From: Polycladomyces zharkentensis
Lineage (GTDB): Bacteria; Bacillota; Bacilli; Thermoactinomycetales; JIR-001
Direction of reading: 5' to 3'
Assembly (NCBI RefSeq): GCF_016938855.1
Contig: NZ_JAFHAP010000001.1
Location: 1-64,000 of the forward strand
DNA: 64,000 nucleotides
Made by a program: the position numbers and the translations under genes. Below, piece after piece: positions 9,236 through 13,838 of this stretch. Under the pieces are notes generated by a model, which saw nothing but the letters and a program-made list of their open reading frames with translations, was not told where the DNA came from and did not search any database. How positions within the stretch are numbered: the first letter of the stretch is position 1; the number at the start of each line of letters is the position of its first letter.

Positions 9236-9364
9236 TATGCTGTCTCGAATGATCCGGAGCATTTTGGTTTCCCAATTTCACTGTGCTACCCTTGGACGTG
9301 AGGAACGTTCCGGTGCGAAGGACCGTCCGCTCCTCGCCTTGTGCCATCAACAAGGCCCGTCCCA

Positions 9365-9394
9365 GACCCCGTTTATGAGGGTCGGCTTTTTTTT
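9365..9394 (+). terminator. pyrD terminator
   Basis: GACCC (9365-9369) pairs with GGGTC (9379-9383), followed by GGC and a run of eight T. It ends the pyrD transcript about 130 bases after the stop codon. From here to 9680 I see no gene. Confidence 0.65.
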
Positions 9395-9680
9395 ATGAGC
9401 CGAAATGTCGTCCATCAACCGACTCCATTTCCATCCGAGCGAACGGTCAAGTGCATCAGCCATTGGTTCAGCTGTTCGATTCGTCCCGCTGGAATCCGCG
9501 TGCCTTATACCCCTCCATCTTGCATATTTCTCCTTGCAAGACATGCCGTACAGGAAGCGCGATCTCTCCGCTTAGTTGGTGGAACTCTTCTGGAGACAGT
9601 GATGCAATGCATGAATGCAGAGCTTACCGCCGCAGCCCCGGATTGGCACTTTCTATCTCGGGAGATATTTCATTACTGTA

Positions 9681-9709
9681 TTGACATTTATTATAATTAT
9701 CAATATTAT
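9681..9709 (+). promoter_or_regulatory. promoter of the radical SAM / ATP-grasp / MFS cluster
   Basis: Consensus TTGACA (9681-9686) and TATTAT (9704-9709) with 17-base spacing. It sits in a strikingly AT-rich stretch containing two copies of ATTATAAT. This is the only strong promoter visible ahead of the cluster. Confidence 0.65.
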
Positions 9710-9736
9710 AATGAATTGAAAGGACATTTTACTGCA

Positions 9737-9772
9737 ATGGCGGAATTCGGCGTTGAAGAAGTCGAACGGTGA
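9737..9772 (+). CDS. possible 11-codon leader ORF
   Basis: ATG to TGA encoding MAEFGVEEVER, between the cluster promoter and the radical SAM gene. An AAAGGA lies upstream at slightly long spacing (about 12 bases). It could be a leader peptide, a tiny precursor, or chance. Nothing else supports translation. Confidence 0.2.
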   Translation: MAEFGVEEVER

Positions 9773-9832
9773 TTGCTCCGGTTGTTCTGTTCAAGTTCAC
9801 TCTCATCAGAACCGGATGTGGGGGGAGGAACA

Positions 9833-10963
9833 ATGAGAAACCCAAATCTGACTCAAACGGAATATGAACGGGAAATGTTGAAAAAAACAATCAAACGATT
9901 TCGTTCTAAAATGAGTCCAAGCCTGGCACGATTAGCAAAACAATCTGAAGCAGTAGCGAAGCAGTTTATTCCAAGCCCATATGAAGCACTGGATTTCGGT
10001 ACGGAAACACCCTTCGAGGCAGGAAAGAATAATCAAGGAATCTATGGTTTGGAACGGATATATGAAGACCGGGCTGTCATTACCCCTTATTTCGAGTGTT
10101 CAGCATACTGCCGATATTGTTTTAAAAAAACGAGAACATTGGCCGGTTCAGCTAAGCGGATGAGTGATGAAGATATTGAGAAAGCGGTTCAGTTTATTTC
10201 ATCCGACGAGAGAATCCGGACAGTGTTGATTACGGGTGGAGACCCTTTTCTCGATCCTGAATTACTAAAAAAAGTATTGGATAAAGTGTTCCCCATTCCC
10301 CATGTGCGCAATATCCGGATCGGAACGCGCAACATTTTGTTTTCGCCGGAATCAGTCACTGATGATTTAGCCAAAATGATCGCCAGTTATAAACGAATTG
10401 ATTATCATGACCCCCGATTATCAAAAAACATCTCCATCGGATTGTCCATCAATCATGTGGATGAATTGACAAAAGAGGTTGTACGTGCCTATCAGCGGTT
10501 GATCAAAGAAGGGATTACCGTTTGGGGACAGGTGGTCTTGCTGAAAGGAATCAATGATTCGGTACGTTCCATTCGCGATTTGGTGGAAGCTTTCCTGTCT
10601 ACGGGAATCATTCCTTACTACCTGTTCCATTGTATGCCGGTGGTTGGGGCCAAGCATTTCCGCACTTCTGTACAAAAAGGTCTGGATATCCTTCGAGAAC
10701 TGTCCCCTTATTCAGGAACTACCGCATTTCAATATGTATATGTTACGCCAATCGGGAAACACCGTATTGCGCCGGGACACCAATTGGAGTATGTGGACAT
10801 TGATGGACAAAGATATATTCGCTCAGTCACTCCATATAAGGCTGCCGATTTTTTGGAATTCTCCGATAGCGACCAACTTCCTCCGTTGCATGAAGTGAAT
10901 GAAGACGGCTATATCGTATCCCATTATCTTGACGGTCACGATGATGAGGAGATTTTGGCATGA
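9833..10963 (+). CDS. lysine-2,3-aminomutase-like radical SAM/PLP enzyme
   Basis: 376 residues from the ATG at 9833, which follows GGGGGAGG; an in-frame upstream start is rejected for lack of such a site. The KamA fold is clear: 4Fe-4S motif C89-x3-C93-x2-C96 (ECSAYCRYC), SAM-binding TGGDP at 134-138, IRIGTR at 161-166, and HFRT at 275-278. K309 in TPIGKH is the likely PLP lysine. In clostridial KamA two aspartates (D293 just before the HFRT motif, D330 before the PLP lysine) bind the lysine side-chain amine. Here the corresponding positions are M268 (HCMPV) and about T305. The substrate is therefore probably not lysine. It is translationally coupled (4-base overlap) to an ATP-grasp ligase. 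It is too short for typical KamA (about 416) and lacks the EpmB context. Confidence 0.85.
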   Translation: MRNPNLTQTEYEREMLKKTIKRFRSKMSPSLARLAKQSEAVAKQFIPSPYEALDFGTETPFEAGKNNQGIYGLERIYEDRAVITPYFECSAYCRYCFKKTRTLAGSAKRMSDEDIEKAVQFISSDERIRTVLITGGDPFLDPELLKKVLDKVFPIPHVRNIRIGTRNILFSPESVTDDLAKMIASYKRIDYHDPRLSKNISIGLSINHVDELTKEVVRAYQRLIKEGITVWGQVVLLKGINDSVRSIRDLVEAFLSTGIIPYYLFHCMPVVGAKHFRTSVQKGLDILRELSPYSGTTAFQYVYVTPIGKHRIAPGHQLEYVDIDGQRYIRSVTPYKAADFLEFSDSDQLPPLHEVNEDGYIVSHYLDGHDDEEILA

Positions 10964-12321
10964 ACAAAGCGATGGTTTTTGTCGAAAATCAGGCGTTTGG
11001 TATTTTGGTAAAATTGGCGAAACGTTCAAAGGAACGGGGATTTGATAACTTTGTGTTGTTTCGACCCATGCATCCCCATGAAAAAGAGCAGTTGAAGCAA
11101 TATGAACAAGCGTACAAACAGCCCCTGTTTGATCGCCTGGTAGAAACAGAGCGATGGGATTTCGATCATATCAAGAAGGCTGTCGAAGAGTTTGAAAAGG
11201 AAAAAAGCTTGGCGGGTCTGATCTGTGTGGGTGGTTTTTTCACTCAGGACGGTCTTCTTGGAGCCCATGTGGCAAAGTTGGCCGAAGAAAGGGGACTTCC
11301 CACACAGTCAGTGGAAGGGTTATACCGTTCCAATAATAAATATCTGACCAGGGACACGCTTTTCCACGCCGGTCTCAATACAGTCGATTTCGGTCTTGCC
11401 ACTGATGAAGAGAGTTTGCTCAGGCATGCGGAGCGAATTGGTTACCCCGTTATTCTAAAGCCGATTAACGGTTGCGCATCACAATTGGTGATCAAATGTG
11501 AAAACGAACAAGAATTGATTAAAGGATTTCATATGGGATTAAAAAAGTTGCCACAATCCTTGTACAAACACATGTACTCTTGCATTCACCGGTTTCCCGA
11601 CCAGAGCGGAAAGATGATCGAATTTAATCCCCTCACTTCCATGTTGGTTGAAGGTTATATTTCCGGCCGAGAAGCAAGTGTGGAAATCGTGGTAACGGAA
11701 ACTGAAGTGATTCCCCTATTGGTTCATGACAAGGTTTTGGTGACGGAAGGTGACAGAGTCGTATACGAACATTTACTGGTTGTTCCGCCCGTAAGGTTTC
11801 ATGATAAGGAAATCCAAAGAATGAAAGAATATGCGGTAAAAGTGGCGAAAGCAACGGGTATCAAAAACGCTCTTTGCCATGTGGAATTGCGCTATGACGA
11901 AAAAACCGGTCCTCAGCTCTTGGAAATCAATCCGCGAGTGGGTGGAATGCTTGTCACGCAGAGTTTGGAAACCATGATCGGTTTTTCCGTACCGGACGCT
12001 ATATTGGATTTGGCTCTTGGAACTTTCAAACCCGGCACTTATGACAGCATTTCCGATTTGCATGCCATGTTTACATTGTATCCGCCTCATTCGGGTTATT
12101 TCGAACGGGTGGAAGGACTCGACAAGTTGAAAAGGTTACCCGGCATTTTGTCCACCACATTGTTGTTCCCGGAAGGTTCATATATTCATGGTGACGATGA
12201 GGAAGTTTTTCTTTTAATGGGATGGATGAGGGGAAACAGTTACGAGGAAATTCTCTCCGTTTACGAGGAAGCAAAGAAAGTGGTTCGTTTCCATATCATC
12301 AAAAAAGAAAAGGGGAAATAA
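10960..12321 (+). CDS. ATP-grasp amino-acid ligase family protein
   Basis: 453-residue cytoplasmic ATP-grasp enzyme of the L-amino-acid/carboxylate-amine ligase type. N-terminal Rossmann-like domain to about residue 125 (GLICVGGFFTQDG). The ATP-binding lysine lies in GYPVILKPINGCAS (about 165). LVEGYISGREASVEIVV (about 230) and the Mg-binding LLEINPRVGG (about 322) follow. Such enzymes form an acyl phosphate and then an amide or peptide bond. It starts inside the end of the radical SAM gene (ATGA overlap). The likely role is to ligate the amino acid made by that enzyme to a partner; this is inference from position. Confidence 0.85.
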   Translation: MNKAMVFVENQAFGILVKLAKRSKERGFDNFVLFRPMHPHEKEQLKQYEQAYKQPLFDRLVETERWDFDHIKKAVEEFEKEKSLAGLICVGGFFTQDGLLGAHVAKLAEERGLPTQSVEGLYRSNNKYLTRDTLFHAGLNTVDFGLATDEESLLRHAERIGYPVILKPINGCASQLVIKCENEQELIKGFHMGLKKLPQSLYKHMYSCIHRFPDQSGKMIEFNPLTSMLVEGYISGREASVEIVVTETEVIPLLVHDKVLVTEGDRVVYEHLLVVPPVRFHDKEIQRMKEYAVKVAKATGIKNALCHVELRYDEKTGPQLLEINPRVGGMLVTQSLETMIGFSVPDAILDLALGTFKPGTYDSISDLHAMFTLYPPHSGYFERVEGLDKLKRLPGILSTTLLFPEGSYIHGDDEEVFLLMGWMRGNSYEEILSVYEEAKKVVRFHIIKKEKGK

Positions 12322-12350
12322 AGTCAGCCTTCTGCTAGGGAAGGCTGACT
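12322..12350 (+). terminator. perfect hairpin between ATP-grasp and MFS genes
   Basis: An 11-bp perfect stem (AGTCAGCCTTC / GAAGGCTGACT) with a 7-base loop starts immediately after the ATP-grasp stop codon. Only TTCTTC follows, so it is a weak or partial terminator, or an mRNA-processing/stabilising structure, within the cluster. Confidence 0.6.
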
Positions 12351-12369
12351 TCTTCGGGGAGTGGATAAA

Positions 12370-13644
12370 ATGGTGAATCGATTGTCATTAAAGAAAGACC
12401 CCATGTTCTATTTTTATATACTTGCTGCAAGCAAAGGGATTTCCGATATTGGAAACTTTCTAAACATGGTTATTTTTAATCTTTATGCTTATGTTTTGAC
12501 GGGCAGTGCTTGGGCCATGGGGCTTTTTATGGCGATTCGGCTTTTCGGAGGCTTTTTTTTCGGCTTTTTCTCCGGAATATTGGCTGATTGGATGAACAGG
12601 AAAACATTGATGATATTTGCCGACATCATTCGTGGTGTTGCACTCGTCTTGTTGGTTCTGGCTCCGATTCAGTGGTCAATGGTGCTGTTGGCAGTTACTT
12701 CTTTCATACTCGGTTCCTTTGGTCAAGTGTTTAACGTTGCTCTGCAATCCAGTATTCCGGTGATCGTGGGGAAAGAACAACTGGTAAAAGCAAATTCATT
12801 GATCAATGCGCTTCAATCTGTCGGAATGGTGATTGGTACTCTCACCGCCGGAATTGCTTTGAATGTGTTGGGATACCGTCCCCTGTTTCTTTTTGATGCC
12901 TTCACCTTTTTTCTGTCAGCAGTCATTTTGATTTTCCTCCCCATCCAAACCAGGGAACAAAATTTGGAGAACCAAGCCGGACCTGTTGAATCGAAAGTCA
13001 ACTTGATTAAGGAGGTAAAGATCTTATATCAGTATTTGAAGTTGCTGCCCATTTTGATGGCGCTCATGTTTATTCGTTTTATCGATACCTTTGGTTCCGC
13101 TTCTCATAATGTGGGTATGCCCGTTTTTTCTGCTCAATTAAAGCCTGATAAGCCTTCCTTCTATGCCGGGATCATCTGGGCGTCTTGGGCGGTGGGCAAC
13201 TTGATCGGAGCGCGCGGCTTGGTCAAATGGTTAAGCTTGAACAAAACCAAAGTGAGCGAAATGGCCTTTGGCATTTCCACTTTTTTCATGTCCGCCTTTT
13301 TTATCCTGTTATTTTGGGGTCAGCATTGGTCCTTCATCTTAATTTGTGCGTTACTTGCAGGTGTCTCTGACGGCATATCCGCGATTTGCTACAATTCACG
13401 CCTGCAAAATGAGCCTGATCATATCAGGGGAAGGATTTTCGGTGTCTCTTCCTCCTTCCACACTGTTGGTTTTGGGATCGGGATGCTTGTTTGCTCGCCG
13501 TTACTTGACGTTATTTCCCCATTTCAAACAGTAGCCATCATGCACGGTCTTCCGCTCATGATGTGTATCTGGTTTGTTGCATTTCACATGAAAAGAAGCA
13601 AATATGTTGAAAGGAAATGGCCAAGGGGAAAATCGATGAGTTAA
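12370..13644 (+). CDS. MFS exporter (EntS/MFS_3-like)
   Basis: 424-residue transporter with about 12 hydrophobic segments and the loop 2-3 signature region GILADWMNRKTLMI. It resembles the MFS_3 / macrolide and enterobactin-exporter group. The start at ATG 12370 is taken because GGGGAG lies 8 bases upstream; an in-frame GTG at 12361 would sit on the ribosome binding site. Third gene of the cluster, after a hairpin. By context it exports the product of the radical SAM and ATP-grasp enzymes or protects the cell from it (inference). Confidence 0.85.
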   Translation: MVNRLSLKKDPMFYFYILAASKGISDIGNFLNMVIFNLYAYVLTGSAWAMGLFMAIRLFGGFFFGFFSGILADWMNRKTLMIFADIIRGVALVLLVLAPIQWSMVLLAVTSFILGSFGQVFNVALQSSIPVIVGKEQLVKANSLINALQSVGMVIGTLTAGIALNVLGYRPLFLFDAFTFFLSAVILIFLPIQTREQNLENQAGPVESKVNLIKEVKILYQYLKLLPILMALMFIRFIDTFGSASHNVGMPVFSAQLKPDKPSFYAGIIWASWAVGNLIGARGLVKWLSLNKTKVSEMAFGISTFFMSAFFILLFWGQHWSFILICALLAGVSDGISAICYNSRLQNEPDHIRGRIFGVSSSFHTVGFGIGMLVCSPLLDVISPFQTVAIMHGLPLMMCIWFVAFHMKRSKYVERKWPRGKSMS

Positions 13645-13812
13645 ATTGTTACACAAAAAAAGATAGCCTGATTGAAACCGCCTTACCCTCAGTGACACCT
13701 TTGCTGTATTGAAATGGAGGAGAAGGTGGGATAGGAGTCCATGGATAAACAAACTGGATTTGTACGGGGCAAGGGGAAAGTGGATAACCAGCATCAAGAG
13801 TTGATCCCGTTG

Positions 13813-13838
13813 AAAAAAGAGGGAATATCCCGTTTTTC
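13813..13838 (+). terminator. terminator-like hairpin after the MFS gene
   Basis: AAAAAAGAGGGA pairs with TCCCGTTTTTCT across a very short loop, leaving a T-rich 3' side. It lies about 170 bases after the MFS stop, with no gene between, so it is the probable end of the cluster transcript. Confidence 0.5.

Follow-up and report, generated by a model that had tools for sequence, protein, structure and literature searches.

A three-gene cassette of Polycladomyces zharkentensis encoding a KamA-like radical SAM protein, an ATP-grasp ligase-like protein and an MFS transporter

Introduction

Canonical KamA enzymes supply beta-lysine osmolytes. In lysine 2,3-aminomutase (KamA/AblA; structure 2a5h), D293 and D330 bind the side-chain amine of lysine, R134 holds the substrate carboxylate, and C268 is the zinc cysteine. 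No natural radical SAM 2,3-aminomutase is known for small neutral amino acids, alanine among them. EpmB and AblA_like_2, which belong to the beta-lysylation of EF-P, are KamA-family proteins without the zinc cysteine, and their partner is the lysyl-tRNA-synthetase-like protein GenX/EpmA (seen adjoining AblA_like_2). BacD, BL00235 and RizA have the ATP-grasp fold of L-amino-acid ligases.

The locus described here lies in a 64,000-nucleotide stretch of the P. zharkentensis genome (contig NZ_JAFHAP010000001.1, positions 1 to 64,000; hereafter the window), where a KamA-like radical SAM/PLP protein (RS) is encoded together with an ATP-grasp amino-acid-ligase-like protein (AG) and a transporter of the major facilitator superfamily (MFS). 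RS shares with lysine 2,3-aminomutase the radical SAM core, the CX3CX2C motif, the PLP lysine, R116 (R80 in RS) and the overall fold; however, the two are ~27% identical over the fold alignment, and D293, D330 and R134 are M268, V304 and K98 in RS. The glutamate and arginine 2,3-aminomutases (TIGR04368 and TIGR04468) belong to the same superfamily and are among the best NCBIfam scores of RS, but they occupy a separate branch of the tree, and positions 293/330, which are Met/Val in RS, are D/T in BlsG and K/N in a glutamate-type homologue (L017). Like EpmB and AblA_like_2, RS is without the zinc cysteine, whereas its partner is an ATP-grasp ligase. AG has the fold of BacD, BL00235 and RizA, although at full length it is only 15-19% identical to them in fold alignments. 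The pairing of ligase and MFS exporter resembles BacD/BacE of bacilysin; in bacilysin, however, the amino-acid modifiers are the Bac anticapsin enzymes, whereas the cassette has a radical SAM aminomutase homologue. The original prediction had named no described system with exactly these three genes, and a full-text search of open-access papers likewise found no described RS-AG-MFS system; the cassette is built from known kinds of enzymes in a new combination.

Results

Layout of the locus

The original prediction placed three genes with an upstream promoter between 9681 and 13644 of the window, and the genes were found there, all co-directional. The features of the locus are as follows.

9236..13814, no strand: accessory block; BLASTN finds no counterpart for it at the orthologous site in two congeners
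9681..9709, + strand: sigma-70-type promoter match, TTGACA-17-TATTAT, agreeing with the consensus at 11 of 12 positions (a consensus match only)
9833..10963, + strand: RS, KamA-like radical SAM/PLP protein of 376 aa, with CX3CX2C cysteines C89/C93/C96 and PLP lysine K309; from profile scores, alignment, fold match and tree
10960..12321, + strand: AG, ATP-grasp amino-acid-ligase-like protein of 453 aa, found only in RS-bearing genomes among the Bacilli sampled; from profile and fold matches
12322..12354, + strand: hairpin between AG and MFS, a perfect 13 pairs, GTCAGCCTTC..GAAGGCTGAC and then TTCTTC, -21.6 kcal/mol
12370..13644, + strand: MFS transporter of 424 aa, exporter type, from profile scores and synteny; TIGR00900, EntS and Mef-like scores below cut-offs

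RS most likely starts at the ATG at 9833, which is preceded by GGGGGGAGGA, a strong ribosome-binding site, and this start was preferred to an upstream TTG at 9773; the MFS gene most likely starts at the ATG at 12370, preceded by GGGGAG. The 4-base overlap of RS and AG that had been predicted is present, with the RS stop codon TGA (10961-10963) and the AG start codon ATG (10960-10962) having ATGA in common. The promoter with its consensus -35 element was also recovered, and because dinucleotide shuffling of the 597 bases upstream gave an equally good match in only 0.4% of cases, this candidate promoter exceeds chance. The block is locally AT-richer, again as predicted, with 43.9% GC over 9833-13644 compared to 53.4% in the window outside 9236-13814. 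The hairpin is a possible attenuator or weak terminator, and no counterpart was found at this position in the Kroppenstedtia and Caldalkalibacillus loci. The hairpin and the absence of the block from two congeners, described below, go beyond the original prediction. A search of the cassette region for a riboswitch or T-box leader returned 0 Rfam matches up to E = 1.

Shared occurrence and gene order of the cassette

Members of the RS clade were found in 13 of 399 sampled Bacilli genomes, representing 8 genera, at 60-100% identity, and the next best matches were at 35%. An AG profile searched against 398 Bacilli genomes with a threshold of E <= 1e-50 identified AG in 12 of them, every one an RS carrier (hypergeometric P ~5e-22, a value that ignores the relatedness of the genomes), and the pairwise distances of RS and AG were correlated with r = 0.95 (12 taxa, 66 pairs). 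Of the 13 RS-bearing Bacilli, 11 have RS, AG and MFS directly next to one another; one genome (G133) has RS-MFS without AG, and another (G127) has RS-AG without MFS. Nine of the 11 Bacilli junctions listed retain the ATGA overlap, and the two junctions without it belong to Tumebacillus loci with two or three AGs, where RS and AG are 2 bases apart. The RS-AG-MFS order was also observed in a deltaproteobacterial metagenome-assembled genome (MAG) and in Archangium violaceum, and the neighbours beyond the three genes vary among lineages. The co-occurrence of the three families, which a neighbourhood search had been proposed to reveal, was therefore seen as contiguous genes across distant bacteria; co-occurrence and synteny exclude chance neighbours, and genome comparison shows RS, AG and MFS to be a conserved unit that appears to move between distant bacteria. 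The cassette is present in Brevibacillus laterosporus and other culturable bacilli, and thus its product is open to direct search.

Three Tumebacillus-type loci carry one or two additional AG paralogues 3' of the MFS gene (e.g., L036:12023-14888). Two leads offered by neighbouring genes were rejected. A histidine link, considered for the his genes or hisS located upstream in the window, Tumebacillus and Kroppenstedtia, is weak, because pyrD intervenes in the window and the congeners keep this arrangement without the cassette. A carnosine-like product, considered for the Beta-Ala-His dipeptidase adjoining the Brevibacillus cassettes, is unsupported, because the dipeptidase gene also occurs in a genome of that genus that lacks the cassette, and is missing from other carriers of the cassette.

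RS is a separate KamA clade with an altered pocket

At the level of family, the KamA-like reading of RS held. RS scored 49.4 bits against the Radical_SAM domain PF04055 (cut-off 29.5), and the cluster cysteines C89, C93 and C96 are invariant in the 13 aligned members of the clade. G308-K309 is invariant in 13/13 and aligned with the GGGGK motif of lysine 2,3-aminomutase, K309 being the equivalent of the PLP lysine K337, and R80, the equivalent of R116, is invariant in the same 13 members. An AlphaFold model of RS (pLDDT 85.7) had lysine 2,3-aminomutase 2a5h as its best solved fold match (E 4.6e-22).

RS and four relatives nevertheless scored below the cut-off of every curated aminomutase family. 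RS reached 175.8 bits against a cut-off of 199.2 for TIGR00238 (general KamA), where the four clade or sister relatives scored 173-190, 171 bits against the equivalog cut-off of 525.4 for TIGR03820 (lysine 2,3-aminomutase), 188.5 bits against 650 for TIGR04368 (glutamate 2,3-aminomutase), and 176 bits against 600 for TIGR04468 (arginine 2,3-aminomutase). In a maximum-likelihood tree, the RS clade, together with Diapherotrites and phage relatives, was split with 100/100 support from the lysine, glutamate-type, arginine and EpmB/AblA-like-2 enzymes, and the branch to the other KamA groups had a length of 1.43. RS therefore did not cluster with an already characterised pathway, but formed a separate clade, distinct from all the aminomutase groups included, and on sequence criteria it represents a new subfamily of KamA. 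Its profile scores, its pocket residues and its place in the tree rule out a canonical lysine, glutamate, arginine or EpmB enzyme.

The pocket of RS differs from that of lysine 2,3-aminomutase. The equivalents of D293 and D330 are M268 and V304 in 13/13 aligned members, T305 pairs with A331, and an equivalent of the zinc cysteine C268 was absent from RS in the alignment with lysine 2,3-aminomutase. The equivalent of R134 is K98 in 12/13 members, the exception being the archaeal one, and K98 is unique to the RS clade among the homologues aligned. RS also has an extended C-terminus, marked by an invariant YLDG motif, that was not seen in the aminomutases compared. These residues predict that lysine, bound in the canonical mode, cannot be the substrate, and K98 in place of R134 could mean that the carboxylate is held in another geometry or that the substrate has no free carboxylate at that place; as aligned, RS keeps no residue that would name its substrate.

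The kept catalytic residues, the altered pocket and the fold together argue for RS as a 2,3-aminomutase whose substrate is a non-cationic amino acid. It is also conceivable that RS, as a PLP/radical SAM enzyme descended from KamA, catalyses another reaction (e.g., elimination, epimerisation or fragmentation), the product of which AG conjugates. The clade-wide changes at K98, M268 and V304, the uniqueness of K98, the long branch and the C-terminal extension would suit such an enzyme; however, RS keeps the PLP lysine, cluster motif and R116 equivalent and matches lysine 2,3-aminomutase best in fold, and we consider another reaction unlikely. If RS is an aminomutase as preferred here, its clade would add a new substrate specificity to the natural radical SAM aminomutases. 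Aminomutases that accept neutral amino acids are of interest for biocatalysis, and alanine 2,3-aminomutases have been obtained by mutating an active-site Asp, not necessarily at the D293 or D330 position, in two lysine 2,3-aminomutases (PMC9850924).

AG and the MFS transporter

AG scored 64.3 bits against ATP-grasp_4 (PF13535; cut-off 27) and keeps H307/E309/R311 and E322/N324/R326, of which the metal and catalytic residues E309, E322, N324 and R326 are invariant in the AG alignment. The match to LAL_C2 (PF18603, the LAL C-terminal domain) was weak, at 25.8 bits against a cut-off of 29.4, whereas the fold match covers the full length. The model of AG (pLDDT 93.9) had the L-amino-acid ligase BL00235 as its best fold match, and the top seven fold matches also include BacD and RizA (L-amino-acid ligases matched: 3vot, BacD and RizA). 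A sequence search among solved structures likewise placed BL00235 and BacD closest to AG. The predicted ATP-grasp ligase was thus confirmed at family level as closest to the L-amino-acid ligases, and the modelled structure presents AG as an amino-acid-ligase-like ATP-grasp protein whose fold is nearest to that of L-amino-acid dipeptide ligases.

Instead of forming a dipeptide, AG might couple the beta-amino acid with a different amine or acid, or with a further molecule of the same beta-amino acid, yielding an amide or a short beta-peptide. Acceptors vary among ATP-grasp families, the sequence matches of AG are weak, as for LAL_C2, and Tumebacillus has two or three AG copies; however, three L-amino-acid ligases are among the top fold matches and BL00235 and BacD rank first by sequence, which makes a product other than a dipeptide rather improbable.

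The transporter had been assigned to MFS_3. Its MFS_3 score is above the cut-off (33.0 versus 27 bits), but its best score is to MFS_1 (109.6 bits), so MFS_3 stands as a match and not as the best one. The reading as an exporter-type MFS protein holds at the level of family, with scores to exporter models such as TIGR00900, EntS and Mef that stay below their cut-offs. An MFS protein of this family could also export another compound or give resistance.

Proposed pathway

Our main reading, to which we assign a probability of about 0.6, is that the locus is a horizontally moving biosynthetic cassette of three genes in which RS makes a beta-amino acid, AG makes a dipeptide and the MFS protein exports it; the genes, their conserved order and coupling, the folds, the kept and altered residues and the accessory distribution are observed, and from these we infer the catalytic steps, the substrate and the product. 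In the first step, K309 of RS would carry PLP, the substrate, a neutral and non-cationic amino acid, would form an external aldimine, and a 5'-deoxyadenosyl radical would shift its amino group from the alpha to the beta carbon. AG would then use ATP to activate a carboxylate as acyl-phosphate and join the beta-amino acid and an amino acid into a beta-residue-containing dipeptide; longer peptides could result in lineages with two or three AG copies. In the third step, the product would be exported by the MFS protein. The secreted beta-amino-acid dipeptide or amide originally predicted is partly supported by the family assignments, the co-occurrence and the separate RS clade, while the product itself is deduced from them. 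If the reading is true, three genes suffice for making and secreting a small peptide containing a beta residue.

A broader proposal, which we put forward tentatively and at somewhat less than even odds, is that aminomutase, dipeptide ligase and exporter make up a minimal natural-product pathway for secreted beta-amino-acid peptides without a nonribosomal peptide synthetase (NRPS) or the ribosome, and that the RS substrate is new to natural radical SAM 2,3-aminomutases, e.g., alanine or another small neutral amino acid. A pathway for an osmolyte or a storage compound, like N-acetyl-beta-lysine synthesis, in place of a secreted metabolite, would agree with the role of canonical KamA enzymes in feeding beta-lysine osmolytes and with the canonical AblA-like gene that the window's genome also has (L088). 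However, no acetyltransferase partner was seen, the cassette has a conserved exporter-type MFS gene instead, and its distribution is patchy; such a pathway is therefore very improbable.

The cassette is part of an accessory block

BLASTN left 9236-13814 unmatched in two congeneric genomes, in which ~550-700 bases stand at this place instead, whereas the flanks, pyrD to the left and the sequence starting at 13815 to the right, align with both congeners at ~89-92% identity (85.6% for one downstream flank piece of the congener L066). Because of its lower GC content and its absence from the two congeners, the three-gene block is an accessory cassette that was probably acquired. Occurrence is sparse: the RS clade was present in 4 of 42 genomes of the window's order and in 1 of 398 genomes sampled across the phylum, that one being the window's own. 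The GC shift, the absence from congeners and this sparse occurrence indicate a likely gain by transfer, for which loss of the cassette in the congeners is a possible alternative.

Plasmid-borne spread was considered and rejected, as no member of the RS clade was found in PLSDB; all 134 matched records were below 60% identity, with 33.6% the best among the matches listed. A search of the flanks for the signature of an inserted element found weak imperfect repeats of 14-22 nt, none of which clearly brackets the block.

Related loci

On the Rhizobium leguminosarum symbiotic plasmid pRlvC (L080:1430-4038), a gene of another KamA subfamily adjoins an ATP-grasp gene of AG's broad family (hhalign 99.7%), and therefore aminomutases and ligases may be paired more widely. 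Unlike RS, however, this KamA scores well over TIGR00238 and near AblA (464 bits) and keeps D293, and no MFS gene was found near it in the 7 kb examined. Similar KamA matches are on many rhizobial plasmids.

In a Pseudolabrys MAG (L051:9431-11555), RS and AG were found with no MFS match, and AG overlaps a gene for a JmjC_2-domain protein (57 bits), an overlap that suggests a hydroxylated variant of the product. A Diapherotrites archaeon MAG (L053:7974-9095) has RS alone, 45% identical, with neither AG nor MFS within 8 kb on either side. A KamA-like protein on a 112-kb IMG/VR viral contig (L059:3889-6077) groups with the RS clade on a very long branch, at 29% identity and with the same KYLDG C-terminal end. 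Its gene lies directly 3' of a gene read as AMP-binding from its sequence (0 Pfam matches), PIG-L-like and hexapeptide-repeat genes are nearby, and the viral locus possibly serves phage surface decoration.
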